DNA of 64,000 bases, from positions 4,464,001 through 4,528,000 of the forward strand of contig OZ038527.1 of NCBI GenBank assembly GCA_964036665.1. The letters run 5' to 3'. This stretch comes from Gordius sp. MW1 (Eukaryota; Nematomorpha; Gordioida; Gordea; Gordiidae). How positions within the stretch are numbered: the first letter of the stretch is position 1; each line of letters opens with the position of its first letter. Below the pieces are notes generated by a model. That model searched no databases, was not told the origin of the DNA, and saw nothing but the letters and a program-made list of their open reading frames with translations. The translations under genes were made by a program, and so were the position numbers. Below, one piece after another: positions 2,660-34,700 of this stretch.

Positions 2660-3340
2660 TAAATTTTCAACATATGATTTGTGCTAGTTTTTTGAGAATT
2701 GAATTAAAAAAGAAGACCGCAAGACGGCCAAATACCTGGCCCTCCTTCCAGCCAACATATTAGCTCCCATTGGCGCCTAATTACAAACCACGCGCCTTTA
2801 ATCTTTTTAAAGAAAACGGCAGGCATTTGTTTAAACAATAATTCCTAATCACTAAATATAATATCAAATCCCTTGCTGACCGCTTCTCCTCAATGATATT
2901 TGTGATGCCTCCGAGCTCTACTTTTTATTAAATATATTAATGATAAGCAATGGGATCGTTTTTGGTTGTCTGTCCGTCCTGTCCAACTTTTAGGTTTTTA
3001 ATAGTTGCCGTGGGAACCTTTATGGGATTTTAATGGCTGTAGACTTATGCATATTTAAAAAACATTTGTTATGCTTTGGCAAATAGATTAGCTAATCACC
3101 TATGGTTGGCTTCATTTTTTCAACCACGCCCAGGTCTAATATCCATTAATATTTTGTGCTCGATTGATTACCTTTACATATAAATTTCTTTTGGCAATCA
3201 TTAATTTATTATATCCGTTTTAATATTTTACATCTATTTTTATAATGTTTATAACCTCAAATAGAATTTTTATTTACTTGCTTCTCATATAATAAAACAA
3301 AATAATTATTACTACCATAATTCTGAGGGTTATTTCATAG
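2660..3340. other. Intergenic, nothing recognised
   Basis: AT-rich sequence without a supported gene or repeat end. A slightly GC-richer patch at 2715-2810 has no open frame I recognise. Confidence 0.4.
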
Positions 3341-3341
3341 C

Positions 3342-3600
3342 CACCATAAGAATGGGTTTAAATCTAATTTGAGCATTATATATACCTATCTCGCTTAGTG
3401 TGTGACTAGAAAATAAACTAGCATACTGATGAGCTCTAATAAGAGCGAAAACGTTATATGTCTGTTATCATTTTCGAAGTCACATGCTAAAAAAGATAGG
3501 GATATATATAGTTCAAATTAGTCTCTAATTAAAATCGCCGATAGATGGCGCTAATTAGGGTAAACTTTTAAGTTAATTGCGGCACTCCTGAAAGGGGTTA
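3342..3600 (+). repeat. Hairpin repeat carrying a hammerhead-like motif, copy A
   Basis: The unit is flanked by imperfect inverted arms: TATATATACCTATCT at about 3379 and GATAGGGATATATATAG at about 3495. The arms continue outwards as AAATCTAATTTG and CAAATTAGTCTCTAATT. The right flank (AGATGGCGCTAATTAGG at about 3545) recurs in reverse orientation at the left of the copy at 19028. Related units lie at 36050-36540 and, truncated, at 62696-62885. There is no coding capacity. It behaves as a MITE-like fold-back repeat with the ribozyme motif at its tip. Confidence 0.75.
3402..3483 (+). ncRNA. Hammerhead ribozyme-like motif, copy A
   Basis: In order: outer stem I strand GTGACTAGAAAAT, inner stem I strand GCATA, core CTGATGA (3426-3432), stem II GCTCT-AATA-AGAGC, GAA box, palindromic AACGTT in the stem III position (3450-3455), predicted cleavage after A3456 (triplet TTA), inner stem I partner TATGT, outer partner ATTTTCGAAGTCAC. 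Every invariant core base of a hammerhead is present. A palindromic stem III cannot fold alone, so activity would be expected in dimers, as known for hammerheads of Penelope-like elements and satellite repeats. Activity itself is inferred. Confidence 0.7.
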
Positions 3601-4395
3601 TTATTATCTTCTGATTATTAAAAAAAACGTGTTTTGAAAGTGCCAACAATCAAGACTTTTAGCTAAAGTCAAGTGCATTGTTGGAATAACTTTCTTTGAT
3701 ATATTTCCAAATATTAAATTACGTTTGGTAAGTATTTATAGCTAACAGATTATAAAAATATCTAAATATATTTTTAATTCGGCTAAAATATCGTTATTTT
3801 AAATATTGTTGAAAATAGCGTGTTTCAATACGAACTTATACTTAAACCTGATCAAGCATTGTTATCACTTCAAATGTCCAATTTTAATTGAAATTTGACA
3901 GGAAGGGTAGAAATTGGTCCTAATTAATTACTTTATAAAATAAAACGCCTTTTTTGTTTGTATGCAAACTAATTTAGGATTAAATCGTTTGGGCATTTAT
4001 TTAATAAAATTTGGAAAAAGTTTAATAAAATAATTTCCGTATATGTGAAGAAAAAAGATAGTTTTATGAGAGATCTGATAAAGTTTATGTTTGAAAATAT
4101 GGCAGTTGGTGACTAATAGAGATTTATTTCGGTTTATTATTTAACTGACCCCTGATTCTATTTTATTTATTAGCGTTTCTAGCTAACTTAACTCTCAAAA
4201 TCAAACGATTCCTAAATCTTGAGTCGGGTTCATCACCCTGTCATACATAGAGCTATTGTTTTGAAATACCATTAATATAGATTAAAAAAATTCATGTGAA
4301 AAATTTTACTAACATATAGTCAAAAAGCATCGCATAAATTTTTACTTCAAATTCTTACTTAGGATTTTAATAGCAAAGTTATACTTTGGTAAAGT

Positions 4396-6514: not shown

Positions 6515-7660
6515 AAGGGTTAACGTTTTTTCCCACCAAACCCTTTCAGTGTTGGGTAAATTTTTTTGGTTCGCCCTTGGTGTTTGGCGCTTTTGTAAAA
6601 AACACCCAAAGGGTGTTTGGGTGAAATTTTTTGGTCGACCTTTGGCGTCTGGCGTTTTTGTTAAACAACACCCAAAGGGTGTTGGGTGAATCACTTTAGT
6701 CGACCTTTGGCGTTTGGCGTTTTTACAATAAAACACCCTTGGCGTTTAGGTGAATTATTTTGGTAACCTTTTGGTTTGGTTTTGGTCGTTAAATAAATTA
6801 AGAACTTTGCCCCCTCCCTTTTTTGTCCCTTTGGTTTGCCCCCCCCTCTTACTTTTTACCCTCTTTCTTACCAGAGGGGAGGGGGGTGTTTTGCCCCCCC
6901 CCCTTATTTTTTACCCTTTTCCTCACCAGAGGGGAGGGGGGTGTTTTGCCCCCCCCCTTATTTTTTACCCTTTTTCTCACCAGAGAGGGAAGGGTATTTT
7001 GCCCCCCCCCCTTATTTTATAGCCTCTTTCTCACCAGAGGGGGGGGGTGTTTTGCCCCCCCCCCCTATTTTTACCCTCTTCCTCACCAGAGGGGAGGGGG
7101 GTGTTTTGCCCCTCCCACCTATTTTTTACCCTCTTTATCACCCAGGGGGGATTTGCCCCCCCCCTCCTTTTTCCCCTTCTTTCTCCATAACTAATCAAAT
7201 AACCTTATCAAGCAATTTTGATTTCAAGAAGGGGGGCACCAGTAAAAAAGAGGGTAAAAAATAAGGGGGGGGGCAAACTCCCCCCCCCCTCTGGTGTGAA
7301 TGAGGGTAAAAGATAAGGGGGGCAAAACACCCCCCCCCCCCTCTCCTCTGGTGGGAAAGATGGTAAAAAATGGGGGGGGGGGAGCAAACCAACGGGACAA
7401 AAAAGGGAGGGGGGGGGCAAAGTTCTTAATTTATTATTTTAAAGTAAAAAGGATAAAACACAAAACGACCAAAACCAAACCAAAAGGTTACCAAAATAAT
7501 TCACCTAAACGCTAAGAGTGTTTTTTTGTAAAAACGCCAAACGTCAAAGGTCGACAAAAAAATTTCACCCAAAACACCCTTTGGGTGTTTTTTACAAAAG
7601 CGCCAAACACCCAGGGCGAACCAAAAAAATTCACCTAACACTGAAAGGGTTAGGCGTAAT
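6515..7660. repeat. Fold-back element with inverted minisatellite arms
   Basis: The left arm (6527-6830) and right arm (7400-7655) are mutual reverse complements and carry a CAAACGCCAAAGGTCGAC-type unit two to three times each. Inside, a minisatellite of about 60 bp (C-runs, TTATTTTTTACCCTCTTTC, TCACCAGAGGGGAGG) is repeated about five times on one strand (6830-7150). About three copies follow on the other strand (7235-7420). The proline-rich ORFs here are repeats translated in frame, not genes. A fragment like the TAGTGTTG MITE end lies just outside at 7692-7725. Confidence 0.75.
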
Positions 7661-11216: not shown

Positions 11217-14200
11217 TGTCGTGGTTTCTCCCACATAGCTTACCATACGCGTATTCTCTCCTCCCCCTCATCTCATCACTCTCCTCGCTTTGTTAGACGC
11301 GTATTAATGTCAACACGCGTGTTTCCCCCCCCTCACCTCACTCTCACCTCATTCTCTCCTAGCTTTTTTTTTAATTAAAAATCTTTATTAGGTGAAATCT
11401 ATATATATGAGAAATAAAAAACACGATCAATAAATAAATACAACGCGTGACTACTCTTCATCTTCATCGAGGGCCAGAGACCAGGTGTCGGAAAATGCCT
11501 TATAATTGTATTTGGCTATTAAAATTCCTATTTTTTGGCGCAAAAGAAAACTTGCTGAGTATTTTCCTTCGGAAGATCTCTTTCCTATCAGTTTAAAGAA
11601 GGCTAATGCCTGTTTGCCAAAAGTGGCGGAACAGGAAGCCACGATAGGGATAGAAATTTTAGAAGGAATTATATCCCGGTATTTATAAGTTTTGCGTGCT
11701 TCCGCTAGGGCTAATGGGTCAGCGTTATTGTTAGAGGGTGATACGTCGATGCAGGTAAAGTCCCAAGATAGAAACTTACCATCATCCCATGGAATTGTGG
11801 ATGTTCCATCGGGGCGTAGAGAATGAAGAAAAGCCGGCTTTTATTAAAGCGGTTTGAATCATAAGGTTGATCTTTTGATGGCGAATGAAACGGAATTTGT
11901 TAAGTTTATAATGTAAGGGGTGATGGGCCCAAACAACAATTTGTTTCTTACAATTTTTACAAGTCAATTGCTTGCAAATTGGGATCCCCAGTCTCAAGGC
12001 GATCGCGTAAGTAATTTCGGGGTTTGAGAGTAAGAGCCACGAGAACTTGCTTGGAATGTATTCCAGCCATTCGTGACCAGAGTCAGTCGTTATTGATTTG
12101 AAATGCTGTACAGCGTCACACTTCGAATGTAGGTAAGCAACGGAGCGTGACACTATATTGGCATCCCAATCTCGTTGTTTGACTGAATTTAAAAAAAAAA
12201 TGGGTTTTGCATTACACTTTCAAGCCATGATGTTAAAGCTGTTTGCGTTAAAAATCTTCCGTCTGAATGGTCAATTAAAAAACGAGATCTTTAACTAGAT
12301 TGTAAGACAAGAGAAAGGCTACTAGGCTAATGGTCAAAGGGGACCTTATTCCTAATCCTCCAAATTAAGCTGGAAGAGTGGCTTGTAACCAGCTAGTAAC
12401 ATTAAAAGATAAGTTTAAAATTTTTTAGGAGGTTTTTAATTGTGGATTCGTATAATTTAAGAATATCTGTGAGTAAAAAAGCAGTTGATCTAAAACAATG
12501 CTGAGCATAAAAAAAGCGTGATGTATTGGTAACAATTTTAAAAGTTCCATTTTTGAGGTCAAAAAAGCTAAATGTTTATTTAAAAAGTCCTGCAAGCACG
12601 GAGATCCGCCTATGGGTGAACCGAGCATAGAAAGTTTTTCCTTAGCCACGATGGAATAAGGTTTAAAAAGCGAATATTGGTCGCAAGCAGGTGGTTGTAA
12701 AATTTCGCATTTGGCATCGTTGAGCGATAGATTTAAAGGTACACAATAGTCTTTAATGATGGTGATGGCTTTGGCGACCTGATCATAGCTTCCCGCCAAA
12801 GTCGCATCATCTAGGTACCAAACATGTAATGATAGATCGCACTGATCCTTAATTAGGTCAATAACTTTCTTTATCCCTCAACAAAATAGTTGAAGGCCCT
12901 CAGCAGATTTAATTATGAAGGAGTCAAAATTTAAAAGGGATGGTGATCAGTAACTTATAATTTGCGTATTGGGGAAACTCTTCTAAAGAATTTTCCATAA
13001 AAACGTTTCTATTAAGCTGATTGAAGGCATATGAGAAATCCAGTTTCACTAAACAGTGGTCGGGATGGAGGTTTTGTATTGTGATACGACCTGCATAGCT
13101 TGCAGCCTCACATCCTCCCTTCACACCAAAGCCTAATTGATGAGGTAAAAGGGGATTTGGTCAATTAGGGTTTGATTCGTTTGCAAATTATTTTAGAAAT
13201 TAAATGGCGGAATACACTCCCAATGGCGATGGGTCTTAAATAATTGTTAGGCTTTTTAACGCTAAAAGACGTGCCCCAAAGAGAACTGGCCTTATCTCTT
13301 GAGGAACATTGGCATTTACAATTAAGTTGCAAAGATGGGTTATTGATTCAAGCAATGAGTTTGAAAAATTGTTCTTTAAATTAATTAAATCTTGCAAGAA
13401 GTTAGGGTTAATGCCATCTTACCCAGCAGAGGAAGGAATCTAGGGGAAATGAGTTGATAGCTTCACTCATTTCTTGGGGTTGGGGAGAAAATGACAATGA
13501 AGAAATACTGTTTGGGTATTTAAATGTATGATTTCAGTTAGGGTGCAAGATAATAATTTGGCTAAATTAATCATGATGGCAGGTACCATGGAGTGGTTAT
13601 TATAAAATACATTCAAAGCACCTCTTAAATTGTAAAAATTGATTTTTTTTGAGATTTGATTTGCTCTTTATGATAAGGATATGTCTATCTTTGATATCTG
13701 TTTATTTGACGTTGGAGAGGATATTCCGTTGTTGAAATTTAGAATTGCGTCTTTGATATGTTTGGATAAATTGGTATCTTTGTTCGGAGGAATAAACAAA
13801 TTCTTTAAAGCTAAATTAAATAGTGTATTCCAACCTTTAGCGTTTTCTGGATTATCAGAATTTAATTTGATAAGGTTTATAAATAATTGTTGCATAGCAG
13901 GGCGAGCTCCACGTGGGATTCTGTTTATAGTCTTAGTAGAGGGTTGAGCTAGGAAGGCATTGCTCCATGTGTAATTAGGTTCTATGTCACTATATAATAA
14001 TTAGAGAGTTGAGGTAAGACAGGTGGTGTGATAAGGGGTAAAGGTTCATTTCTTTCTTTAATATTAAGAGGTAAGGGGGGTTTAAGAATAATTGGGGGTA
14101 CACTCTTACCAGGTGAAGGGCATCTAAATGTTGTGGGGCAATGTAATAAAAAACAATTATTTTTGTTTATGGATATTTTCCTATTACAAGAGGGACAGAG

Positions 14201-16768: not shown

Positions 16769-19700
16769 ATGGCTTGTAGACCTAACATATTTGACAACTA
16801 TTTAGAAGGCAGTGACGATTTTTCTGATACTATCAAAGAAATTTTTGAAGCTTGTAGGAACGGCGATCTAAATAAAATCAAATCGATCATTAATCCAACT
16901 AATATCAATTATCGCGATGACTTAGGACGCAAATCTACACCACTACACATTGCAGCAGGTAAGATAGATTATTGTTATGTAATATAGTCTTAAAGGTTTT
17001 GGGAGACTTGAGGTTGTGGATTATCTATTAGTGACGGGAGCTGATGTTAATGTACATGATGAAGGTGGCTTGATTCCCCTTCATAATGCTTGTTCATTTG
17101 GACATTGTGAAGTAGTTCAATTATTGCTTAAGCATGGCTCAGATCCCAATGCCAGAGATAACTGGAATTTTACTCCATTACACGAGGCTGTGATAAAAGG
17201 CAAAATAGAAACATGTTTAAGTAATGCTAATATGTTGATTATGAATAATTAATACAATTTTCAGTTTTACTTCAGAATGGTGCAAATCCTGAAATATGTA
17301 ATGCAGATGGTAAATCTCCCTATGACATAGCTGACACTATGATAAAAACAGTTTTAACAGGTATTTTGTATATAGCCTTATTGTTTGTAAAATGTCATGT
17401 AGGAGAATACAAAAAGGATGAATTGCTTGAAGCAGCAAGGTCAGGAAATGAAGATAAACTTTTATTTTTATTGACTCCCTACAACACTAATTGCCATGCT
17501 GATGATGGAAGAAAGTCTACACCCCTGCATTTGGCTAGTGGCTACAATAGAACAAATATTGTCAGGATTTTATTAAAGCATGGGGCAGATGTAGGTGCAA
17601 AGGATAAGGGGTAAATTTTGTTTTTAATATTCTCTCCCTTTTTTAAGTGATTTAAAAGTTATGAAATTTTGTTTTTTATAATTATTGATAAGCTATGAAA
17701 TTGAATTAGAGTAACATGAATTACATTGATGTTATATTTATTTGGAATACTAAATTTTATTGCAACATTATATTATAACATTTATATAAATGGGTAATTT
17801 ACTACATTTGCCTGGTTAAGGCAACATAAAATATAAGTTATTTCAATTCAAAGCTATCCAAATAAATAAACTTTAAATATTTGTATCTCTAAAATTTCAA
17901 ATAAATTTATGGATATTTTTTATCACAGTGGTTTAGTACCTCTTCACAACGGTTGCTCCTATGGGCATTTTGACGTGGCCGAAATTTTGATAAAACATGG
18001 TGCTGGCGTTAATGCACAAGATTTGTGGCATTTCACTCCACTGCACGAATCGGCTTACAAAAATAGGGGGGACGTTTGTAGTTTGCTCATTTGCTACGGG
18101 GCTGACCCTACCCTACTCAATTGTCATGGCAAATCGGCTTTTGATTGCGCCGCTACAAAAGAACTCAAGGACAGAATGCTCTGTATAAATTTTTTAATTT
18201 TATTTTGAAATTAATTTTATCACAGTGTTGTAAAAACGGCTGGGTTTTGTTTGGTCTACCTTTGGTTTAACTAAGACTAAGGTCGATTTTGCTCTGCCTT
18301 TCAGATTTCGACTAAGCTCAGAGGTAGACTATGAAAAACGGGGAAAGATCTTTTGTTTGTTTATGTTTAGTCGACTAAAACCAAAAGTCGACCAAACAAA
18401 ACCCAGCCGTTTTTTACAACACTACTCCTTTGGCCAAGGTTACAATACTGATAAATTGGTTGGTATTTCAAAATATTAACTTTTTAGATTTTGCCCAAAT
18501 AATTGGGTTATATGAATTAACACATTTATAATGTTATAAATATACTTTACCTTAAAATTGTTGGTTTCTTTTAGACGAATACAAGGGTATCGAGTTTTTG
18601 GGTGCAGCACTTAAATGTGACGTGGCAAAACTGAAAAAATTCATATCCGAATGCTGCGCTTTCAAGCATCCTCTAACTGGAAACAACGCTTTGCACGAAG
18701 TTTCATCTTCTACCCATCCCAAACGAAAACAGGTATGATAATTTCATTTTACGCATTTAAATTTTCCAAATTTAATCATTTTTATGTTTTAAAATTTTGG
18801 GTTTTTGGTTAAGGTGATGGAATTTTTGATGCGTAAAGGCTGTAACGTGAACGAAAAAAACAACGATCTCCTGACGCCATTACACGTTGCGGCAGATGCG
18901 AATGGCTTGGAAATGGCGGAAGTATTGGTGAAACACGGGGCCAAAGTATAAAAGACAAAAATACTTTAATTTTGATATACATCTTATAATTAATTTGAAG
19001 AAGATGATAATAACTTTATTTAAAAGTGCGGCAATTATCTTAAAATTGTGCTTTAATTAGCGCCATCTAGAGGCAATTTTAATTAGAGAGACTATATATG
19101 GGTCGAATCTAATTTGACCTTATTCTACCTATCGCGCTTAGAATGTGACTAGAAAATTAACTATGGCATACTGGTGAGCTCTAATAAGAGCGAAAACGTT
19201 ATATGTCTGTTATCATTTTCGAGTCACAGCTAAGAGATTGGGATATAAATAGCCCAATACCATTTAACATGGTCCCTCTCCCCCTTAAAAATTAAAAAAT
19301 TGTTTTTTTTATAAATACCTCATTTTAACCAAGGCGTTGCGATTTCTTAGCAATTTATATGGCCATGGGCTAGCCAGCATTCGAATTAGAGGGGGGCGAT
19401 AATGATTTAAGGAGTAGCAATTTTTTCAAATTTTAACCATAATTTTTAGCAAATTTTTTGATTTAGAAGGGGGCAGCCGCCCCTCTTTGCCCCCCCCCCC
19501 CCGGCAACGCCCATGTCTATGGCTAAAATAATTTTCGTTCTTTTATTGTATCAAAGGTGATTGCTTTGGACAGTTTAGGACAAACCGCGTTGCAGCGTTG
19601 CGCTAAACTGGGCAACGCTAAGGCTTGTTCAATTTTATTGACTCTCGGCTGTAATCTAGACCACGTGTCCTTGCAAGGCTTCACGGCCGTTCAATTGGCA

Positions 19701-22700
19701 ACAAATTCCGAAACTCTTAATGTTTTGAAAGGTAACTTTTTTATTTTGGGTAAGATTTGTTTAGCTGAAATAATCAATTAAAATTTGCTTTTAACTAAAT
19801 CTATTGAAGTTTAAAATTGAAATACTAATTTAGAGTTATTAATTGCTATGCAATTTATGGGCTCGTTTTTTGTTGTCCGTCCGTCCGTCCGTCCATCCCT
19901 ATCTATTTGCATTGGGTATATTAGGTTATCGATTTTTTAAATTAATGCATGAGAAAGAGGTGCCCCACCCCTCATCTCTATCTCCCTCGGTGTGTTATAT
20001 ATATAAGATTTGTTAAATTATCTATTATATAATAAACATAAATAAAAGTTGTTTACTTTTAATGCCATGCAATTTAACTAGTTATATAATAAACATAAAT
20101 AAAAGTTGTTTACTTTTAATTGCTATGCAATTTAACTAGTTTTTTAGTTAGAATCCCGGAGTTTTTTTTGACTCTTATGATTGTTCTTGTAACTATCATT
20201 GATAATAAGAATTTTTGGCCGTCCGTTGGCTGCTGACCGATGGAAAAAATGACCATTGGCCAAAATGTGAATCGAAATTATTTTTTTCGTTTTTTTTTAC
20301 TATTATGATTGTTCCTGTTCCTACCATTGCTATTATGACTTTTTGGCCGTCCGCTGGCTGCTGACCAATGTTATATAATAAACATAAATAAAAGTTGTTT
20401 ACTTTTAATTGCTATGCAATTTAACTAGTTTTTGGGTTAGAATCCCGGAGTTTTTTTGACTCTTATGATTGTTCTTGTTACTATCATTGATAATAAGACT
20501 TTTTGGCCGTCCGTTGGCTGCTGACCAATGAAAAAAATGACCAGTGGCCAAAATGTGAATCCGAGTTTATTTTTTTCGTTTTTTTTGACTATTATGATTG
20601 TTCCTGTTACTACCATTGCTATTATGACTTTTTGGCCGTCCGCTGGCTCACCGATGGAAAAAATGACCATTGGCCAAAATGTGAATCGAAATTATGTTTT
20701 TCGTTTTTTTGACTATTATGATTGTTCCTGTTCCTACCATTGCTATTATGACTTTTTGGCCGTCCGCTGGCTGCTGACCAATGGAATAAAATGACCATTG
20801 GCCAAAATGTGATTCGAAAACTTTTTTTTCGTTTTTTTTGACTATTATGAATTTATATCCACTTTTACCGTGTCCTGGCTGCTGACCAATGAAAAAAAAT
20901 GACCATTGGCCAAAATGTGATTCGAAAATTTTTTTTTCGTTTTTTTTATTCTTATGAATTTATATCCACTTTTACCGTGTGCTGGCTGCTGACCAATGGA
21001 AAAAAATGACCATTGGCCAAAGTGAGCATCAAAAATTTTTTTTCCGTTTTTTTTGGCTATTAGAGTATCTGTTGGTACTGACCAATAGAGAAAAAATGAC
21101 TATTGGCCAAATTTTTGATTTTTTTAATTAAAAATTGTTCAAATTCAACAAAAAATTTCTCCCAACAATTCTGCAAATTCTTAACATTGTGTTGTTTTAT
21201 AATATAATGTTTGTTAGACCCATAATCACTAAAGGCCATAAAAACTAATGTAATACGCAACTAGATGCAAACACTAAATCTAACCCTAACCCTTGCCTAT
21301 ATTACATTTTGCCTATAATGGAAAATTTGTATAAATAATTAATTAATCATTAGGCATTTAATACCCCCCTATAGGCATTCTCTCCCCTTCCCACCTTTCT
21401 CGCCCATAAATTGCATAGCAAATATGATACATTTATACGAAGTACAGATGAGTCGTCCCCCCTTCCCTTCCCCTCTTCCCTTCCCTTCTCCCCCTTCCCA
21501 CGAGGGCCGAAGGCCCGAGTTTTTTATTATGTGAACAGTCTTTAAAATTATGTATATCATCGAGTGACGATTTTAATGATCAAATTTTGCATTCAATGTT
21601 AAGAAACATATTATCAAAACTAAAAAAACCTTACTTTTAAAGTTTAACGCAGAACCTATGCTAAAACATGTTTTGTTCCTTTATTTAGGCGTTCCCAATG
21701 ATACCAAAAATGACCAAACGACAACTACCACCGATGGTAAAGTTAAAAAAAACTCGCAACAACCGATCGTTCCAGAAAGTACGATGACCTCTCCCAAAAT
21801 CGTCTGCTCACCCGAGGAACTGGGAACTACTTTTTCTGGCGTCACGCTCGCGGTAGCGAATCACGTAGTCGCGACCGATTTGCGCGCGGCCAAAGAACTC
21901 GAAATGGCGACACTCGAATCCAAACTTCTGGAAGCGGCGAAGGGCGGTGACCTCGAACTCTGCCGCACCCTCATAGATGGTCCCGCCCCTTTAAATTTTT
22001 CGGGGGTCAGGGTGGGCGCCGGGCGGGTCGACGTTAATTGCAGGTATAAATATTAGAAGCTTTTAACTTTTAGCGAGTTTTATAATTAATATTCGGCAAA
22101 CGAGTTCGTTTTGCTTTACGTCAAGATTAATATTTAATAAATTCTCATGTAAACAAAACGAACGATGGAATTTATGAGATTATTGAAGCCTTAATTATGT
22201 AAGCATTAACCCAATCAGGAGTCTTATGAAATATTGGGTTGAGGAGAAAGTTCGGTAGGGTGCAACACATGTTGCATTATTTTATCGATTTTTTGCTTCT
22301 GATGAATTATATAATATTCATTAAGTAGAACTCTTTCCCCTCTACAAAACTGTGCCAATCGTGAATTTGAGAAAATTTAGTTTTTTATAACTTTCGCGAC
22401 GTCAAAATGAAATATCCAAACGGTAAAAATCAACATTTTCGACACCTGCTATTCTTCGCTTTTTATCGTGGTCAAAACGCTGCTGAAACCATGCTGAAAC
22501 AGCCCGAGACATTTGTAAGGTACGGAGAAGGTGTCATAGTTGAGTCTACAGCACAAAAATGGTTCGCAAAGTTCTAAAATGGCGATTTTGACATCGCTGA
22601 CAAGCCCCGTAGCGGAAGACCCTCGGAATTCGACAAAGAGTGTCTCAGAGCACTTTTGAAGGAGGACGGTCGCCAAACAAGTCGTGAATTGGCGGAAATA

Positions 22701-25700
22701 ATGAAGTTCGATCAGAAAACCATCCTAAATCATCTTCATTCGATGGGATTTGCCGAAAAATTGCGATCTTGGATCCCTCACGAGCTTAACGAAAGCCACA
22801 AAGAAAATCGTCTTCAAATTGCTTCTCAACGTCTCGCCCGTCATCGAGCAACCCGCGGTCATAAACAGCGCTTTTTTGTACCGAATCGTCACGGGAGATG
22901 ATAAATGGTGGTTGTACGTAAATTTGAAGCAAAGAAAGGAGTGGGTGGCTTCTGGAGCGACTCCAAAGCCGAGAATTAAGCCTGACCTCCATCCGAAAAA
23001 GACCATGATTTGCGTTTGGTGGGACTGGGATGGCATTCTGCATTGGGAAATTCTGGAAAGGAATGCCACGGTCAACAAGGAGCTCTATATATCTCAGCTA
23101 CACTGCGTGAATGAGGCTATTCGACTCAAAAGACCCCATCGACAAGGCCAGACCATACTCCTTCACGACAACGCAAGGCCCCATGTTGCTCAAGTCGTAA
23201 AAGCCGCACTCCAAGTGCTCGAATGGGAGGTCCTTCAGCATCCACCATATTCTTCGGACCTTGCACCGACGGATTACCATTTTTTCCGCTCTCTCTCGAA
23301 CCATATGAGGGGCGTTACCTTGGACAATGTAGAGGGCCCTTAAAAAATGGCTCAACAACTTCTTCGATACCAGACCGGTCGATTTTTGGCGTAATGGCAT
23401 CGAAAAATTGGCAAAAGGTGGGAGGAGGTCGTAAACAGCAACGGCGAATATATTATTGAAAAAGTTTTTGTTATAACAATAAATAATCGTTAAATAAAAG
23501 ACTTTGATAAAAACTCTACGAACTTTTTCCTCACCCTAATAAATGTGATTCTACTTCTAATTCAGCAAAGGTGAGTTTGGGTTTGGCGAAAATTTAAGTT
23601 GTTCATTAAATTTTAGTCAATATCTTATATTCCAATTAATAGACATCCATTGGCTAGATATTTTATGATAATTTTTGCTACATGTTGTATAACTTAAATA
23701 CAACCCTAAAATTAAGCGTACCGCCCATTAGGTTTGTGTCTTTATATCGAAATTGCCATGGCTTTAAGCGTATCCACCCCTTATAACATACATGGCCACG
23801 TGTCTTTTTAATTATGGATTTAAAGCTTTATTCATTACGAAACCTTTATTTATTAATATATATAAATAGCATTATATGGCCCCACCCTCAAAATTTTGAA
23901 ATTTAAAATGGGAGGTGTTTGTCGTTCGCTTATTAACTAGTATAAACTTTTCGAATTTAATATTAAACATAATAGACTTAACAATAGCCACTAAATCAGA
24001 TAATTTACCGACGTCTGATGCTTAAAACGTATTTAAATTACATAAATTGCATAGCAATTAAAGGGAACCACTTTTAAAATAACTAAATTATTAATATTGA
24101 AGTTTTATCATTCGGACTAGCCTAATATAATATTTTAAATAATTTTTCCTTAAAATTTAAATCAGGGATACGGACGGGCGTCATTCTACGCCTATGCACT
24201 TAGCTGCTGGTTATAATCGAGCGGGCGTCGTTGAATTTCTACTTTCCAGGGGAGCTGACATACACGCCAAAGACAAGGGGTAAATGTATGGGCGTAACCA
24301 AGGGGGGGGGAAGAGAGGGGCGGCTTCCCCCCCCCCCTTTAAATCTAAAAAATTGTTGAAATTTATTAAACTGAAATTTCAAAAAATGATTATTTTGCCC
24401 CTCCCTAACTCATTATTGCCCCCCCCCCTCTAATCCCAAACTCTTTCGTTTTCGAACATTTCATATAAATATTAATATAAGTGTTTAGGGTTAAATATCA
24501 CGTTTTTTTTCATTTTAAAGAACTAAACTCACGGATTTTAAACATAAAAACGCAAAAAATGTGTATCCCATCACCGTCAAGATTTTGCTGAAATCAAAAA
24601 ACCACCTTTTATTTAAAATAAAAACGTTCGCGATTCTCTTATTTAATCACTTTCAAAAATTTAGTCAGCATTCAATGTTGGCAAAAGATTGAGTTTTTTT
24701 AGGATGAAAATAAAATGACAATGTTTGCAAAAAGACGTGTCTGTCCAACATTTTCTCTGTTATTTAAATCGTTCGTTAGCGAAATGATAGTTTGTTTTTT
24801 ATCGTCCTTTAAAGTTGTTGGGATACGCGAGCTAATTGCAACCCAGATGTTGTATAAATTTTCCCTTTATACCAAAACTTGGTTTCTAAATATACCTTTT
24901 TTGTCTTTCCAAAATTCGTGGGCATAGTCAGGATTGGAATTAGAGAGGGGCTAGGGTGGTGCAAAATGAAAATTTATCGAAAATTTGGCCAAAACAATAG
25001 TAAATTTCAAAGATTTCTTGAAATTAAAGGGGGGCAGCCGCTCCTCCCTGTTACCCCCTAGCTACGCCCTTGCTAAAAATTAAAAGCTTTTAGAAGAATT
25101 TGTACAAGTAACCAATTGATTTTTTTGTGTCAAAGTCATAAATTTGAGTGAAGGCTCAACTAGTAGGAAAGAGTTGTTTATAGTATCCTACAGGATTTGG
25201 ATGCAAACATATCCTTTAAACGCCAATATCACGCTGTGTTGGAATGCGTAAATCATAAGATTTATTGATGCAAAATCCTTGACAATGATTAAGAAGACCA
25301 AGCTCGTTAGAATCACGAGAGCAGAATTAGTTTTGCTTGTTTATTATAAAAGAAAATTCATTCTTTTTTTTAATTGAAAAATTTGTATCGATCTACCGTC
25401 TTTATTATATTTAATCTGATTCTATATCAATCGCCTTCCCCGTCGAGTATCAATATGAACATGCTTAATTACCATTTTGCTCCCCTATTTTTGAATTTAA
25501 TTTTGTTTTCGAGAGAAGTTAGAGTCGCAATTGAAACGGAAAAATCTGACAAATAGTAAGAGGATTTTAGTTATTGATATTCTCTTTGTTTAGTTTCCAT
25601 AAATTTCCCACATTTATTTTCGTTAAAAATTGTGTTCCAATGCATTACTAACTTTGATGGAGAAGTTATATTATTTTATAAAAAGTTGTTTTTTAAAGAA

Positions 25701-28700
25701 GATATTATAGAAATTTGTGTTTTTTCGGGTCAATTTTGAAAGCATTTGACTTTCATTTGTAATAATTATATAGCTATAAATCAATCGATGTGTGGTGGCC
25801 CTTCTTTTATTCAATTGACATGATATACATTTTGAATTTTACTTTATCTTTTTGGTTGAAAATCTCGTATATAAGAAAAATACAAAAAACAATGTTTTAA
25901 GGAAATTTTTTACAATAAAGTTAGCTTTATTTGCTATATGAATATTAATGCATCCTGTAAAATAGTGTTCTAAAAACGGCTGGGTTTTGTTTGGTCGACC
26001 CTTGGTTAGACTAAACTTAAACAGATCTAATTAGAGGTTTTTAAATCTATTTATGTTTAGTCGACTTAAATTAAGGGTCGACCAAACAAAACCCAGCCGT
26101 TTTTACAACAACACTACTGTGAAGGACAATTTTGATATCATAAGAAATGACTTCTTTGCCATAATATAAGATAATTAAAACATTAACGTAAACTTTAACC
26201 CATGCAACATGAAATTATATAAATTTTACAGCTGGATTTTTTTTCTTCAATTTTCTCAACATTTTCGCCCTGACAAATCAACATTTTTTCCCCCGATAGA
26301 AATTTATTTCCAAATAATTGCGTATGTTACATGCTAAAATATATGATAAATTAATGAGCTGGCATCCAGCCATGGATTGAGATTGTATTGGTTTTTACAA
26401 TTTCCATGGAGATTTATATCCAATTTTTTTAATTGCTGTGCTCAGAGGCTTAGTGCCTTTGCACAACGCCTGCTCATACGGGCATTCCGAGGTCGCGGAG
26501 CTCCTGCTATCGCGCCGCCCCGACTCAGACCCAGACGCCGCAGACTTGTGGGGCTTCACGCCGCTGCACGAAGCCGCTGCCAAGGGTAAACTTGACGCTT
26601 GCGCTCTACTCTTACGCTTTGGGGCTGATCCCGAGCGCCTAAATCGTGACGGGATTACGGCTCGTCAATTGGTTACCGCAACTTTTCTCGCTAACGTTCC
26701 TACGCTCGAGCGCGAAGTAGGGATAATTTAAAAAAAAATCTTACTATGAGTATAATGGCGATTTATACTTTTTTTTATTATTTACTCCAGAGGTTTTTGG
26801 TTGGGTATTCCATAGTGCATGCACAGTCCGAGTAATTGTTTTATAAGTTTTTTGTTGTTGTTAATTTGAAATAATAGTTTAGTCCTTTTTTAATATAATT
26901 TTTGGCGAATTGACCAAACCTCAAGGCAACTTTTAAGTTATTTTGGTAGGACGCCTGTGGCATAATAAGATAAAGTTGGTCACGGGGTTTAATACCGGCC
27001 GTTTTAAGGTTGCATCGCATTATTCATTTTACGTCGCCCTGATTTATGAGATGCAAAACTTTAATTTAGTTATGTTTGTAACCTATTGGCTTCGAAATTT
27101 AAATATCCTTTTTTCTATTAGATTGAGGATTTGTTATAACCTTTTCAAAGTTTTCACATTAAATTTATCAACGCTAGCGCGAAACTAACGCTGCCGCTCC
27201 TACGCTCGAGCGCGAAAAATTGCTGGAATTGGGTGAGCTTTTAGTGGACGGTGGTAGGGCGGCACTGCTAGAAGCTTCTAAGCGCGGCGCGCTACCCAAA
27301 GTCAAGCGTCTAGCTAGCCGTGCTAATGTCAATTGTCGCGATACCCAAGGGCGTTATTCTACGCCCCTCCATTTAGCCGGTGAGCGTTTTGATATTAATG
27401 GCGTAAAAAGAGCTGGGTTTTGTTTAGTCGACCTTTGGTGTGTTCAAGGTTTTTGGTCTGTTTTTCTTAGTCAATGGTTTGTTTTTTGTTAAGTCGGACG
27501 TTAGTCTTAGATGAACCAAATGTCGACTTATCAAACCCCAGCTCATATTACAAGAGCTACCATCTCCTAAGATATTAGAGCTTTGTTGGGTCGATAATTT
27601 TTTAATTTAATTATTCTAAAATATAGGCCAAATCAAGCTAATCTTAAGGCTATTTTTAAAAAGCCATAGAAAGATTTGGCAAAACATTTTTATTGCTTGT
27701 ATTTTTTACCCGCCACATACTGCTGGTCGAAGTCTTAATTTAATCAGTAACCTTATCCCGAACGCAATGGTATACTAGTATTTTTGATTTTAATAACGAC
27801 CTATACTTGTGGATAGCCTAGTGTCTTGTAAAAATGGCTAGGTTTTGTTTCATCGATCTTAGCTTTTAGTCGACTAAGCATAAACAAACCAAAGGTTTTT
27901 TTGGCAAAACATTGGATCTGTTCATGTTTGCCACTCTTGAGGGTAGAATGCGCCCCGATGGAACATCCACAATTCCATGGGAGGATGGTAAGTTCCTATC
28001 TTGGGACATTACCTGCATCGACGTATTTGCACCCTCTAACAATAACGCTGACCCATTAGCTCTTGCGGAAGCACTCATAAATACCGTGATCTAAAAATTT
28101 TATCCCTATCGTGGCTTCTTGTTCTGCCACTTTTGGCAAACAGGCATTAGCCTTCTTTAAATTGATGGGAAAGAGATCCCCCGAAGGAAAATACTCAGCA
28201 AGTTTTCTTTTACGCCAAAAAATAGGAATTTTGATAGCCAAATATAATTATAAGGCATTTTCCGACACCTGGCCTCTGGCCCTCGATGAAGATGACGAGT
28301 AGTCACGCTTTTTATTTATTTATTGATCGTGTTTTATATTTTTCATATATAGATTTTACCTAATAAAAAAAAAAAAATTTAAAAAAAAAAATTTAAGGTT
28401 GATTAGTCAAACCCAGCCACAATAATAGTCTAGCAATCGTACACAGTTTTAAGTTTATTTTAAAGATCTATAACAAGTGTATTGATTTAGTCACTTGAAA
28501 TATCCAAACCAAATGTAAAATTAACGCTTTCGTTTTTAATCAGGTAGGGCTGTCAAAATCTCGACCTCGCTGGACATTCACTCTAACATAACATATCATA
28601 GTTTCTTTAATCTCATATTATAATTTTCCGGCGCCTCTTTTTTGCCTGTTTAAATACATTAATAAGGTATCAATGTAGAACGTGTAAGAATGGGATAGTT

Positions 28701-31700
28701 GGAAATCAATAATTTTAAAACATATATTTGCTTACGTTAAAATTGTTAGCCGGTTACAATAATTTTGACGTGGCCATACTACTGCTCGAGCTCGGGGCCG
28801 AAGTCAATGCTCAGGACCGGGGTGGCTTAATTCCCCTCCACAACGCAGCCTCTTACGGGCACGTGGATATGGCAGCACTCTTGATCGATAAGTAAATTGC
28901 TCTGATAAGAACCACCTCTCTGGGTTTTATTACAAAATATTAACCCCATTTTTGCGTACGACTACTTGTCAATATAGTGTTTATCTTTTTAATTGAGCTC
29001 GAGGATTTGTTTTAGCCTTAGTTTTCCATTCTTTTTTCCCCCCGTTTCATTTACACAGCTTGGTCGTTAGATAAATGTCTGGCTTAGATTTTTGTCGGTC
29101 AAATTATATTTAAAGCCTTACGCTATTTGAATTTTAAATCAACGACTGATCGGATGCCATTCGAATAATTTTGATTTTTTGTATCTCGAAGTTTATCTCC
29201 GGAAACTTGGGATTTACTATTGTTATACGTGTTGGGGGGGGGGGGGAGGATAGCTCACAGAACCCTAATCTAAGCTTAACGTAATTAAATTGGTTTTGGT
29301 AGTGTTCTGCTACCAAATAACTTTACAAATTTTATGCAAGTAATTAAATAGAAGTAGGGTTCATTTGTAAAAGTTAATATAGTAAATTTGAGTCCAAGTG
29401 AGTTTTATGTATTAGAGTAGAAAGCGTAATCTTTTAATCTAATTATGATTTTGTTGCGTGCTTTATTTAACGTTGGCATTTATAATCTCACATTTCAGTC
29501 TACAGAATTATATAATAGTTGGCTAACAATATAAATTTAAGATGAATATTTCTAGTTGTTATACATTTTTTTCAAATTTAAAAACTCAGTACATAAAGCT
29601 ATAATTGCCTTTTTCATACAAAAATGTAGGGGGGCCAGGGTAAACGCGCCCGATAAATGGGGTTTCTCTCCACTCCACGAAGCAGCTCAAAAAGGTCGGA
29701 CGCAATTGTGTTCGCTCCTTTTAGCTCACGGGGCCGATTTTAACGCTGTGAATCACGAAGGGGCCACGGCCCTCACCCTAACTACCGTAAGTTTGGTTGC
29801 GCTCTTGCTATCTTTTCCCTTGTTTGCAGTCTTTCTGAAACGTTGTTGATTTTTATTAACGAATACAGCAGACTTTACATTCATGCCTTTGAGATATTAG
29901 CTTACTAATGATTTCATGGTATTAATTTGGTATTGAGTTAAAGGGCTGTTTCTCTTAAAAACTCTCATAATTTTTTGTTATAAGTTTTTTTTAATATTTT
30001 TGATTCAGCGTGGGTTGATGGTAAACCCCAAACATTGAATAGCTATTGCTCGTTTAACAAACTTTATAAGCATACTACCTAGATTTTAGTACCGAAATTG
30101 TGTCGTATCAATGTTATATGCAATATTTATGATTTTGGCATCCGTACTTTTAAAATCTACCTAATTTTTTAAACGGGTTGGGGTTTCAGGGACCCCGCAC
30201 ATCATGTAACTTTTTTCCCCCATTCTCCCAGGCCGAGGATTGTAAATGCCTGCTCGAGAGTCTCTTGATAGGGCGCGGGGTGAGTGGGGGTCACGTGACT
30301 CTCAGCGATGGCGACGATCACCACGTACCCGTGACCACGGCTTCGATCCGGAATACGGGGGACGGCGACCAATCCGACGGCGAGAACGTCGCCGTCAAAC
30401 ACGTGGCCACCTGCTCGTCGACCAACGGGGAGGTTGAGGGTCACGTGGCGGGAGACCAATTGCCAATCGCTTTCCTCAAAAGATTGTCGCTCGATCACCT
30501 GATCCCTTTGTTCGAATCGGAAAAGGTGAGGATCGTCTGCGTCAGACAATATTTTGACACAAAAATCGCAAAAGATTTAAATTTCGATTAATTAATTTAC
30601 AACGGTTTTGAAACTCGATGATGAAGGATTGTTTTGGTATATTCCGCAAAAACCTTTTAGTTACGAATTTTTTTCTATTAATTAACACAATTATAGTTCA
30701 ATTTTTTTCAAAAAACCTTCTTTTACCTAGTTTTCTTGGCTACGCCCATCCACCCGCTTTCCCTTTTTTGTTTCTATTTTAGACCCTGCTCTATATAATA
30801 CTCTCTTGTATAATTTGTGGATAATTATATTTAAAGCATGATTCAGAGAAGGATATTAAATTAATGAACGGGTGATACCGAACATTTGCATAGCTTAGTT
30901 ACGGAGGCATTTGATAACGACTAGCAAACGTTTGAAATCGCTTTAATAAAATATAAAATTTTCATGTTTTCAATTACCCGTTGCGAAAGCATATTAGATT
31001 TAAAAAATAATACACGCGTTGTTTAAAACCTTTTACAATTTTTATTAGACATTTAAGAATTTATTCTAGGTTAGCCTTCTTAACCAAAAGAAAAACTATT
31101 TGTATTTCGTGTAGCATGGGAAAAATTATCTTTTTAAGGCAAAATATAACGTTCATCGTGGAATGAGAAAAAAATATTTTATTTTAAGCTGGGAAAGAAT
31201 AGTTAAGTATATATTTGATTTTTTAAGCCATTTTTCGTTCAAATAAAGGTTACCTTGGATATATTGCGAGAGATGGGTCACGACGAGTTAAAATCGATCG
31301 GTGTTACTGCTTACGGCTATCGCCATAAAATTATCAAGGGCGTACAACGATATCCACCCTCGGCAAACGACAGTGAGTCAAATTTCAAAAATTTGTTCCG
31401 ATTTAATTTCTTTTGTTAATGTAAGTTTGCATGATCGTAGCAAGCATTGGAATTAGAGGGGGGCAATAAAAATTTAGGGAGGGGCAAAATGAACATTTTT
31501 TAAAATGTTAGCCATAATTTTAATAAATTTCAACAAATATTTGGATTTAGAGGGGGGCTGCCGCCCCTCCCTGCCTCCCCTCCTGGCTACACCCATGTAA
31601 GTTTATCAATGCATGAATAAATCAATGCAATTATTTATGTAGCAAGCATGGGCGTAGTCAGGGGGGCGCCCCTCTCTAAATCCAAAAATATGTTGAAATT

Positions 31701-34700
31701 TATTAAAATTATGGCTAAAATTTTTGAAAATGATCATTTTTCCCTTCCCTACATCATTATTGCCCCTTTCTAATCCCAATACTGGCAACTCCCATGGCAG
31801 CAAAGTTACTTTAAGCCTTCTATTTATTTATAGAGATAAACTTTTACAATAACTAATCTATAGTAGGCATTTAAAGTTTGTGGTGCAGGACTCCCTAACC
31901 CATGGGCGTAACCAAGGGGGGGGGGGGGGGGGAGGGGGGGGGGGATTGGGAGGGGCGGCTGCCTTCCTTTTAAATCCAGAAATACTTTGCCCCTCCCTAA
32001 ATCATAATTGCCCCCCTCTAGATCCAATCCTGGCTACGCCCATGCCCTAACCTGACTAACAAAATGGTAAATCATAATGAAAGGGTATAAATGTATTTCG
32101 GAAATCATCGAGGAATGGGGATCATCAACTTTTTAAAAATTTGTCATTGGTCTAGTCAGAGTGTTTATTATACTTTCATTAAACATTTTTATCACGTTTA
32201 GGTATTTTAATTAACCCTCGAGAGTATTGATGGGGTATTTTGGTACCCCACGCAAATTATAAATTTAAATATAAAACGCAATTTAAGTCTAGTGAATCTG
32301 GCCTTTTCAGTAGCTTAATATTTTATCAAGAACTAGATTAGGTAAAAATTTCATAGGTTTTGGTTTTTTTTTAAAATATAGAAGCTTTTTTGGCTCGTGG
32401 GGTTCTGTTAGACCCCACGAATATTCTCACGTAAGGTTTTTTCTATATGAAAAAATGTATGTATTTTTTTTATATGAAGATATCTTTTACAATTTGTGTT
32501 TTTAATACATTTTGAACATTCCTTTAATAAAAAATCACGTTTATTTTGATTTATTTTAAGGTATATGATGTCAAGAGGTAAAATGAGGGGGAGCTCTAAA
32601 ATAACCAAAATAAAAATGGGGGCCCAGAAAATTGTTAATAAGTTTTGTAATGTTGATTAGATTTATATCAAAATTTATACCATCAATCTTAAGACCTTTA
32701 TAAACATATGTTTAAAATTTCAAAAAGGTTATAAAGGAAGGAATACTTTAAAAGTTATAAGAAGTTAAAAGGTGGGATAGATTTATACCCCACGAATACT
32801 CTCGCGTTCGGGATTTTTAGGAATACTCTCGAGGGTTAAAGTAGCAACTTATTAATCCCAATTGTTTTTAATCAATTAATTATTACCTTCAAATCGACCT
32901 TTTACATAATAATATTTTGACACTTTTACTCAATCTAAAAAGCCGGATATTAGGGTATAATTAATTCCACTAAATCTCAATTTTCTTTGGTACATAGAAC
33001 TTTATCAAGTGCTATATGTGCTATAGCTTTGAAACATCTGAAACGTTTCATCTGAGGGCCAGGCACCCATACATATATCAGTGAAAGGTGTATACCTATT
33101 ATACACACTAATCGCAAAATGGCTTTCATAATTAAGGCCTATGTAGTCTATAAACATTGATGTTGCGCGTTAAAAACATCATTTTTCCCCTCCAAACTCA
33201 GGCCTGAATATTAGTGTGTAAAAAGAGCTAGGTTTTGTTTGGTCGACTTTTAGTTTTAGTCGACTAAATATCAACAACCCAAAGATTTTTTGGTCTGTTT
33301 ATGTTTAGTCGACTAGAACCAAAGGTAGACCAAACCAAAACCCAGCCGTTTTTACAACACCACTAAATATTAAAACTCCATATTTTAGAATGTCCATCTA
33401 CCCCATCGTCCAGTAGTAGCACTTCTACACAGGAGATGAGCCTTTCACCCTTGGCGACATTGAACGGCCCCAAGCCCTCTTTAAGCGAGACTATCCTGTT
33501 GGAATTGGATCGAGACGACAAAGAATTCGCCTTGGTTGAGCACATGATGCAGTCGTCCATCAAGGAGCACAAAGATAAGGGTTTAGCTGGGGGAATATTT
33601 GATTCCTACGACATTTTAAAAGTTTGTTTTTTTTCTTCTTTATTTATTTTAAGAATATATATATATGTAAACGCTGGAATGTTTTCGGAATTTCACCTAA
33701 TTAGTGGTGTATCTTTCTCTTAAATGTTGGATTAATTTGAATTGGAGTTTTGACGTTCTAAAGCGTTTTGGGTGACATTTGGCATTTTAAAACGTGAAAA
33801 TATTGTTGAAGTAAAAAGATTTAATCGTTAAATGATAAGAGTTCCTTTCATGGTTGGTATTAGTGTGCCGGACGGGTATTAATCTTAATAAATTTTATTT
33901 TTGCGTATTTAATTTCATATATCAAATGGTGTTTTCACGATAAAATATATCACCTTTAAAACTATGATTTCGACCTGACCATAAGTACTATAATTTTTGG
34001 AATATACCTTTTAAAGAAAGCAGACGATAGTTTTAAGTTTTTTGATATTTTGAATATAATTGCGATAAATTGACGAAAACTGTGTGTACAGAAAATGTAT
34101 ATTTTCCGTTTAATTTTATTTAATTGAGTTTTCTATTGTATTTTCTTACTTATATTTATTTCTTTTCACTCCCCTAAATATTAAAACTGAAACTATAACC
34201 AAATTGTTTTAATTGGGAGACGAAAATTCCAAAATTACTGTTGTTTTTTAAAATTAATTTATTGTCCATGTAACTATAGTAAACAACTGTCAGTTGGTGC
34301 ATAATTTATAGACTTCTCATGTAGGGTAAATTACAAGGGTTTAGCCAGGATTTGAATTTGGGGGGGGGGGGCTATTGTAATTTAAGGGGGAGTTGAGGCA
34401 AAGTAGAGTACTGCATAGTCAAGTTTTCCGAACCCGACCCGGCCCGGCCCGAAAGCATTTCAACAATTTCAACCCTAACCCGGGTTTCGGGTCACTCGTG
34501 TAGGTCTTTAAGGCAAAGTAATGTTTTTTTTTTGAAAACTTAACAAATTCTTAAAGGATTTTTGGATTTAAGGGATTTATATGTGTATGGTTGTGTAAAT
34601 TATATTAGAGTAGTTAATAAATTCCGGGTTTTTGATAATAATCAGAATAATTTAATTGCGTCACTCCTGAAGGGATCATTATTATTTTCTTTTGATGTTG

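Follow-up and report, generated by a model that had tools for sequence, protein, structure and literature searches.

A minimal type I hammerhead ribozyme within a probable retrozyme of Gordius sp., and the Penelope-like structure of retrozyme insertions

Background

Metazoan non-LTR retrozymes are AT-rich, non-coding repeats of 150-450 bp that carry a type I hammerhead ribozyme and occur as anything from dimers to long arrays (Cervera and de la Pena 2020; PMC7229834). Some hammerheads, those of the newt type and of Penelope-like elements (PLEs), have a minimal palindromic stem III and work better as dimers, or only as dimers (PMC7229834, PMC7761336). PLEs or LINEs have been suggested to move animal retrozymes, since they co-occur with them and both have type I hammerheads as well as copies in tandem (PMC7229834, PMC7761336, PMC11722881). 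Retrozymes, dimer hammerheads, and PLE tails are already known, and the mobilisation of retrozymes by PLEs is a published suggestion.

At the level of insertion, the protein of a lizard PLE acts on both strands of the target, cleaving and extending each, and two internal start sites match the optional tail of the element (PMC11167929). Tails of this kind have been described in Penelope of rotifers and fruit flies as well as in the lizard element (PMC11167929, PMC3846280). Of the two inverted repeats in a rotifer Penelope, one may or may not carry the tail, and the duplications measure 8, 9, and 10 bp (PMC3846280). Comparisons here and below draw on the accessible portions of the cited papers.

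Here, we describe a hammerhead sequence in the genome of Gordius sp. MW1, the element that carries it, and the structure of its insertions.

Results

Hammerhead core

The window (the whole stretch of 64,000 nucleotides analysed) contains a real and complete type I hammerhead-ribozyme sequence at 3421-3461 (Table 1). It presents the CUGANGA and GAA core, a NUH triplet, and three stems with stem I open, stem III being formed only between molecules: AACGTT has at most 1-2 pairs within one molecule and six between two. From its sequence, self-cleavage is predicted at A3456/3457. The window copy lacks two nucleotides beside stem I that are present in most copies (CTAGCATA here, CTATGGCATA there), and for this reason its stem I reaches the internal loop after 5 bp instead of 6.

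Table 1. Hammerhead and retrozyme features of the window (window coordinates)
Feature	Position	Strand	Basis or remark
Type I hammerhead core	3421-3461	+	Sequence; Rfam HH9 below gathering score; pattern counts
Start of stem I (GCATA / TATGT)	3421-3425 / 3457-3461	+	Sequence
CTGATGA box	3426-3432	+	Sequence
Stem II (GCTCT-AATA-AGAGC across 3433-3446)	3433-3437 / 3442-3446	+	Sequence
GAA	3447-3449	+	Sequence
Palindromic stem III (AACGTT)	3450-3455	+	Sequence
A17; triplet TTA; predicted cut A3456 / 3457	3456	+	Sequence
Extended stem I (rod)	3364-3521	+	Arms 3364-3407 and 3478-3521 flank the ribozyme
Retrozyme unit, family A, ~352 bp	3269-3620	+	Alignment to other loci and to a single unit taken out of a tandem copy
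Second retrozyme insertion, family B, head-to-head	35934-36581	.	L046 in the insertion set; direct repeat ACCATAATATGTT at ends
Minus copy of the second insertion	35934-36306	-	Outer 3' end at tail site T
Plus copy of the second insertion	36307-36581	+	Outer 3' end at site S
Hammerheads of the second insertion	36152-36182; 36387-36417	-; +	Core pattern

The window contains three matches to the core pattern with 14 spacer bases, and 100 shuffles yielded 0. Across the 211.8-Mb genome, the looser pattern CTGATGAN{10,22}GAAAACGTTA retrieved 311 matches (185 + 126) against 0 for the reversed control, and a narrower one (13 spacer bases), which misses the window copy, retrieved seven against one when reversed. 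Viral contigs gave 0 exact matches to the hammerhead.

No Rfam family matched the window at its gathering score. Below that level, Hammerhead_HH9 matched the window copy at 31.6 bits (E 2.6e-6 for 301 bases; gathering score 52), and the hairpin was also matched, below the cut-off, by some miRNA-precursor families at up to 27.5 bits. Elsewhere, five array units of one locus (L055) scored 29.0-29.4 bits and a sixth, incomplete because the locus ends within it, 25.0 bits; two further loci scored 26.6 bits over part of the model (L009) and 27.3 bits (L081).

The two arms flanking the ribozyme are 44 nt each and 80% complementary, and the hairpin folded at -62.8 kcal/mol, where shuffles averaged -29.1 (z -8.6). 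In the unconstrained minimum-energy fold of the window hairpin, the core was mispaired. Holding it open in one hairpin gave -20.8 vs. -23.4 kcal/mol unconstrained, a cost of 2.6 kcal/mol, and for two molecules with AACGTT paired between them the hammerhead form (-46.1) was 4.7 kcal/mol less stable than the unconstrained one (-50.8). In these models, the active hammerhead form is not favoured by thermodynamics alone.

The original prediction had read the motif as CTGATGA, a 5-bp stem II, GAA, AACGTT, and TTA, and both the sequence and the pattern counts bear this out. The predicted cut agrees with the position that it gave, between 3456 and 3457, and its assignment to the type I kind with a too-short palindromic stem III needing a dimer, known from PLEs, retrozymes, and satellites, holds. 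Among the checks that it had proposed were an Rfam search and in silico folding. The Rfam search returned nothing at gathering score, but 31.6 bits for HH9 at the window copy and 25.0-29.4 bits at other copies. Background scores for all copies, which were to count against the motif, were thus not what the search gave. In silico folding recovered the strong hairpin but placed the active form of both monomer and dimer above the unconstrained minimum.

For conservation, 29 copies were picked by overall similarity, and the strict core was intact in 20 of them. The core was not more conserved than the rest of these 29 copies (11/493 core cells changed vs. 99/4060 elsewhere, p 0.88). The first six pairs of stem I, one of several regions looked at, were less variable (1/348, p 0.004). 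Paired cells amounted to 88.6% and dropped to 31-53% when the partners were slid; covariation did not exceed that of shuffles (0.080 vs. 0.080). Ribozyme activity is therefore without support from core selection or covariation.

Retrozyme unit and families

The window copy is in a single orientation, truncated at its 5' side near 3269, and ends at its 3' side at site S (3620) with no tail. A target-site duplication was not found for this copy, the best direct repeat at its ends being 5 bp. It belongs to family A, whereas the second insertion of the window and an array of ~26 kb on C1 represent family B.

Both families have ~175 bp in common (about window 3360-3534), made up of the ribozyme and the arms, at 85-90% identity, and blastn gave no other clear match between them outside this segment. 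With a more sensitive alignment of their 3' regions, only 2/300 shuffles scored as high; the similarity covered ~18 nt within the rod and ~30 nt beyond it, and this stretch past the shared rod means that the two bodies may not be wholly unrelated. As circles, unit A folded at -86.2 and unit B at -80.0 kcal/mol, whereas 100 shuffles of each averaged -62.9 and -58.9, respectively.

Copies occur dispersed, as multimers, and in the ~26-kb array. The period is 367 in one tandem pair and 368 in another, and the units of the array (C1:7847944-7874084) measure 341-375 bp; by hand count, it holds at least 60 of the 311 pattern matches. More than one unit in length was seen in 19/69 segments. The cleavage junction was crossed by 52/69 segments, a count that fetching around the ribozyme favours, and 2/69 began no more than 3 nt away from this junction. 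These counts point to a template that was circular or had not been cleaved.

These elements are AT-rich, non-coding repeats in the 150-450-bp range with a type I hammerhead and tandem copies, and they show recurrent 3' ends, variable 5' ends, and duplications longer than 4 bp when present, as metazoan non-LTR retrozymes do. The window copy at 3269-3620 is thus very probably a small non-coding, non-autonomous retrozyme. By analogy with those systems, retrozyme RNA of unit length, linear or circular, would be expected. A plant LTR retrozyme was also considered as a candidate and rejected: it has a type III hammerhead, LTRs with PBS and PPT, and a 4-bp duplication, against a type I hammerhead and repeats of mostly 8-16 bp here.

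The window holds several other features. At 22729-23343 (+) there is a transposase fragment (PF01359), which we take to be of mariner type. An ankyrin-repeat frame and a PARP catalytic frame at 17249-34951 (+) resemble exons of one gene, presumably a tankyrase-like one. Reverse-transcriptase-like frames without a Pfam match lie at 12425-12877 (-) and 47526-48029 (+); we assume that YLDD and QGCPLSP in them are reverse-transcriptase motifs. Finally, repetitive frames rich in proline and phenylalanine at 6797-7264 (+) are probably a tandem repeat.

Insertion architecture

The insertion set was drawn from loci L001-L052, removing duplicates, clusters shorter than 60 nt, and clusters within 15 nt of a locus end; these filters also excluded the C1 array. 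Of the 49 insertion records, 23 were head-to-head, 26 single, and 0 tail-to-tail, and in the head-to-head records both outer ends were RNA 3' ends. Retrozyme copies have common 3' ends and variable 5' ends. Numbering positions from the cleavage site, the 3' ends of family A gathered at site S (160-165; 20/55, 0.9 expected if even) and at site T (199-206; 18/55, 1.2 expected if even), and those of family B at 162-164 (4/17) and 219-220 (4/17). The spacing from S to T is 40 nt in family A and ~56 nt in family B. The 3' ends that fell off these clusters (17/55 in family A, 9/17 in family B) were scattered or truncated.

Among head-to-head records with both ends canonical (n = 15), 14 had one end at S and one at T, one had S at both ends (L019), and none had T at both (p 0.0005 under independence of the two sides), a one-tail rule that was scored on the same data that suggested it. 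At least one non-canonical end was present in the other 8/23. Two of the records (L049 and L051) are perhaps one event, and the rule then stands at 13/14 (p 0.0009). They lie 1.9 Mb apart on C1 with near-identical 30-nt flanks on both sides; farther out, 67 and 60 of 120 positions match in an ungapped comparison.

Direct repeats of at least 8 bp flanked 15/22 of the head-to-head insertions tested, compared with 3.2% of 462 swapped-flank controls, and 2/15 of the single-orientation ones tested (of 26), compared with 4.3% of 210 controls. The 22 comprised 21 of the 23 head-to-head records (L014 and L050 were left out) plus L020, whose halves entered the 49-record set as singles. At head-to-head copies the repeats were mostly of 8-16 bp, lengths that are upper estimates because bases of the element ends can be included. 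The L020 insertion itself (C8:23722934 to about 23724540) is head-to-head with an outer 12-bp direct repeat and ~570 bp of other sequence between the 5' ends, possibly DNA captured at the 5'-5' joint. The flanks of the L011 and L036 insertions are rich in the same GAACTAGTTC-type repeat, which is perhaps a preferred target.

An optional tail in the form of two 3' ends, head-to-head copies, and short target duplications are the insertion marks of PLEs, and all of them are found here. The open reading frame of a PLE, with reverse transcriptase and GIY-YIG domains, is not: units measure 341-375 bp and no such frame lies near 3269-3620. The retrozyme behaves like a PLE at insertion and is not a PLE. 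Its insertions show a PLE-type structure, which does not imply a particular PLE or contact with its enzyme.

Penelope-like elements of the same genome

GIY-YIG matches were found at 118 places of the genome. Neighbours within 6 kb (n = 34) were head-to-head (-+) in 18 cases, on the same strand in 16, and tail-to-tail (+-) in 0; one +- pair, 13 kb apart, enters when the limit is set to 15 kb. The PLEs also form tandem blocks (C8:28243286-28278707 and C5:441910-462401) that repeat every ~2957 bp and contain open frames of ~875 aa, and these arrays consist of two opposed blocks, minus then plus. One ~875-aa frame has its GIY-YIG domain at residues 772-854 (Pfam). Among the best 120 of its 457 listed relatives, most carry RVT_1, and the named ones, from various animals plus one metagenome label, share 28-36% identity. 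A GIY-YIG of another kind is present at L068 and L069. Two matches on C4 (C4:23467463 and C4:23582220; 54 bits, 152-aa frames) are unlike the PLE ones and are, we assume, perhaps copies of a host SLX1-like gene.

Copies of PLE family P1 end on the 3' side at either of two places separated by ~35 nt, which lie roughly 88 and 124 nt inside the ORF. The three readable head-to-head insertions (L071/L072, L073, and L078) have one end of each kind and direct repeats of 12-13 bp, an arrangement similar to the tail described for rotifer, fruit-fly, and lizard elements. Folding the start regions of A, B, and P1 (n = 3; that of P1 includes some flank) placed S in or at a predicted hairpin loop and T 36-56 nt downstream.

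Neither the core regexes nor Rfam found a hammerhead in the PLE-type loci L070-L080 (11 of the 118 GIY-YIG places, ~3 kb each), and the same Rfam searches gave 25-29 bits at retrozyme loci; one loose core match in L072 was judged by eye to be without stem II. The 3' regions of the retrozymes showed no similarity to those of P1-P3 over shuffles (six alignments, each equalled by 149-283 of 300), so that the common tail which unites many SINE/LINE pairs is lacking here.

Discussion

The Gordius elements agree with metazoan retrozymes in their predicted self-paired RNA, in duplications longer than 4 bp when present, and in the occurrence of PLEs in the same genome (PMC7229834). Most invertebrate retrozymes have a stable stem III; the Gordius one is minimal and palindromic, as in the newt-type axolotl motif and in PLEs. 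Head-to-head one-tail insertions are not described for metazoan retrozymes in the accessible text of that paper (PMC7229834). With optional-tail PLEs, they share two internal 3' end or start sites, head-to-head and partial tandem copies, a one-sided tail, and short duplications (PMC11167929, PMC3846280). Differently from those PLEs, they have no ORF, their hammerhead is absent from the local PLE loci searched, and their sites are 40 (A) or ~56 nt (B) apart, compared with the 30-40 nt reported. The minimal dimer hammerheads of PLEs and Terminons (Cervera 2014 and Lunse 2017, via PMC7761336) are likewise of type I, with a short or absent stem III, and in tandem; here the ribozyme sits in a dedicated non-coding unit of ~367 nt, in two families with at most weak similarity elsewhere. 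By its description, pDo500 of Dolichopoda is comparable as a hammerhead in an insect satellite repeat, although the accessible description mentions no head-to-head insertions or retroposition (PMC2837043).

We consider it likely that the retrozyme is moved by PLE-type enzymes. Tandem copies would be transcribed into multimeric RNA, in which neighbouring units would supply each other with the stem III partner. Paired hammerheads, with stem III common to two units, would then cut this RNA into units of ~367 nt, and the cut units would be ligated into circles. A PLE GIY-YIG endonuclease/reverse transcriptase would nick both strands of AT-rich DNA and begin cDNA synthesis at two internal positions of the retrozyme RNA, spaced by 40-56 nt, each strand normally using one of them. 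Both cDNAs would be extended around the circle, or along a multimer that had escaped cleavage, and stop at variable points; joined 5' to 5', they would yield a head-to-head copy that bears a single tail and is flanked by a short duplication of the target. Cleavage, circles, the use of a PLE enzyme, and the joining step are what we infer from the structure of the copies. In the lizard PLE, hammerhead mutants left in vitro insertion unaffected, and no RNA ends were observed at the cleavage site (PMC11167929). Cleavage may therefore not be needed for insertion, and since these mutants still insert, the ribozyme may serve circle formation or processing instead.

Other explanations share part of this evidence. 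The original prediction had placed the hammerhead at the tip of a MITE hairpin and taken its stem I for the inverted repeat of a fold-back element; on this reading, a DNA element would have a hammerhead within its terminal repeats by chance. Two strongly folding 44-nt arms of 80% complementarity and short AT-rich direct repeats at many copies are what such an element would offer, but the arms are internal to the 3269-3620 unit, the copies have two 3' end sites and variable 5' ends and form multimers and tandem arrays, and the direct repeats accompany head-to-head copies and hardly single ones. As a class, MITEs have terminal inverted repeats and a duplication of fixed length; here the repeats vary, and they are shorter than 8 bp in 13/15 single copies. 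We regard this as the least credible of the readings, with very little chance of being right, and what had been taken for the inverted repeat of the element is stem I of the RNA rod. The remark that no retroelement genes lie nearby fits a non-autonomous element: among 79 retrozyme places, one has any of the 118 GIY-YIG matches at a distance of up to 5 kb, with 0.34 expected by chance. Overall, the earlier interpretation is partly supported. Plain satellite DNA, dispersed by DNA recombination with the hammerhead as a passenger, would suit the ~26-kb array and the lack of any sign of purifying selection on the core; recombination accounts neither for 3' ends at two sites nor for the one-tail rule or the direct repeats at the flanks, and we find this reading very improbable.

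Three further readings involve reverse transcription. The copies could derive from an autonomous PLE carrying this hammerhead, as solo pseudo-LTRs or as truncated fragments, since PLEs elsewhere bear minimal hammerheads in their pLTRs (PMC7761336, PMC11167929) and the insertion architecture is the same as that of the PLEs here. However, the eleven PLE-type loci searched have no hammerhead, retrozyme places near a GIY-YIG match are as rare as stated above, and there are long arrays of ~367-bp units, so this is improbable, if less so than satellite DNA. Slightly more doubtful is a retrozyme moved by a LINE, with inverted copies arising by twin priming. Twin priming gives inverted insertions with target duplications, such as those observed; the classic form, however, yields one outward 3' end and an internal inversion, unlike the two outward 3' ends at two start sites found here, and the retrozyme pattern equals that of PLE family P1. 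PLE-type enzymes could also be at work with head-to-head copies made by self-priming on one template and not by priming at both nicks, as the rotifer Penelope study infers from palindromes at inverted junctions (PMC3846280). By itself, self-priming from one cDNA leaves the two different outer start sites in 14/15 unexplained, and the lizard PLE extends both target strands (PMC11167929); we judge it unlikely, though the least so of these alternatives. Against movement by PLE-type enzymes with priming at both nicks, the reading that we prefer, stand the lack of similarity between retrozymes and P1-P3 above shuffles and the ~56-nt spacing in family B, outside the 30-40 nt reported for PLEs.

More tentatively, and with a chance that we put a little short of even, retrozymes may parasitise PLEs, much as SINEs do LINEs, but by structural mimicry without sequence homology. 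What they would mimic is the two-site start module of the PLE RNA; circular RNA would provide an endless template, and a pair of enzymes would nick both strands and assign one strand to each start site, giving exactly one tail per complete insertion. The hammerhead rod would be an exchangeable cassette joined to two start-module bodies.

Conclusions

In the literature searched, with subscription papers largely outside it, we found no report of tail-bearing head-to-head retrozyme insertions. The one-tail rule suggests different start sites for the two strands of one target and thus bears on PLE insertion, where the lizard PLE showed no strand difference in start site in vitro according to the accessible text (PMC11167929). 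For retrozymes, the insertions described here provide insertion-level evidence, beyond co-occurrence, for PLE-type enzymes as their movers, a claim that is testable in any retrozyme-bearing genome.
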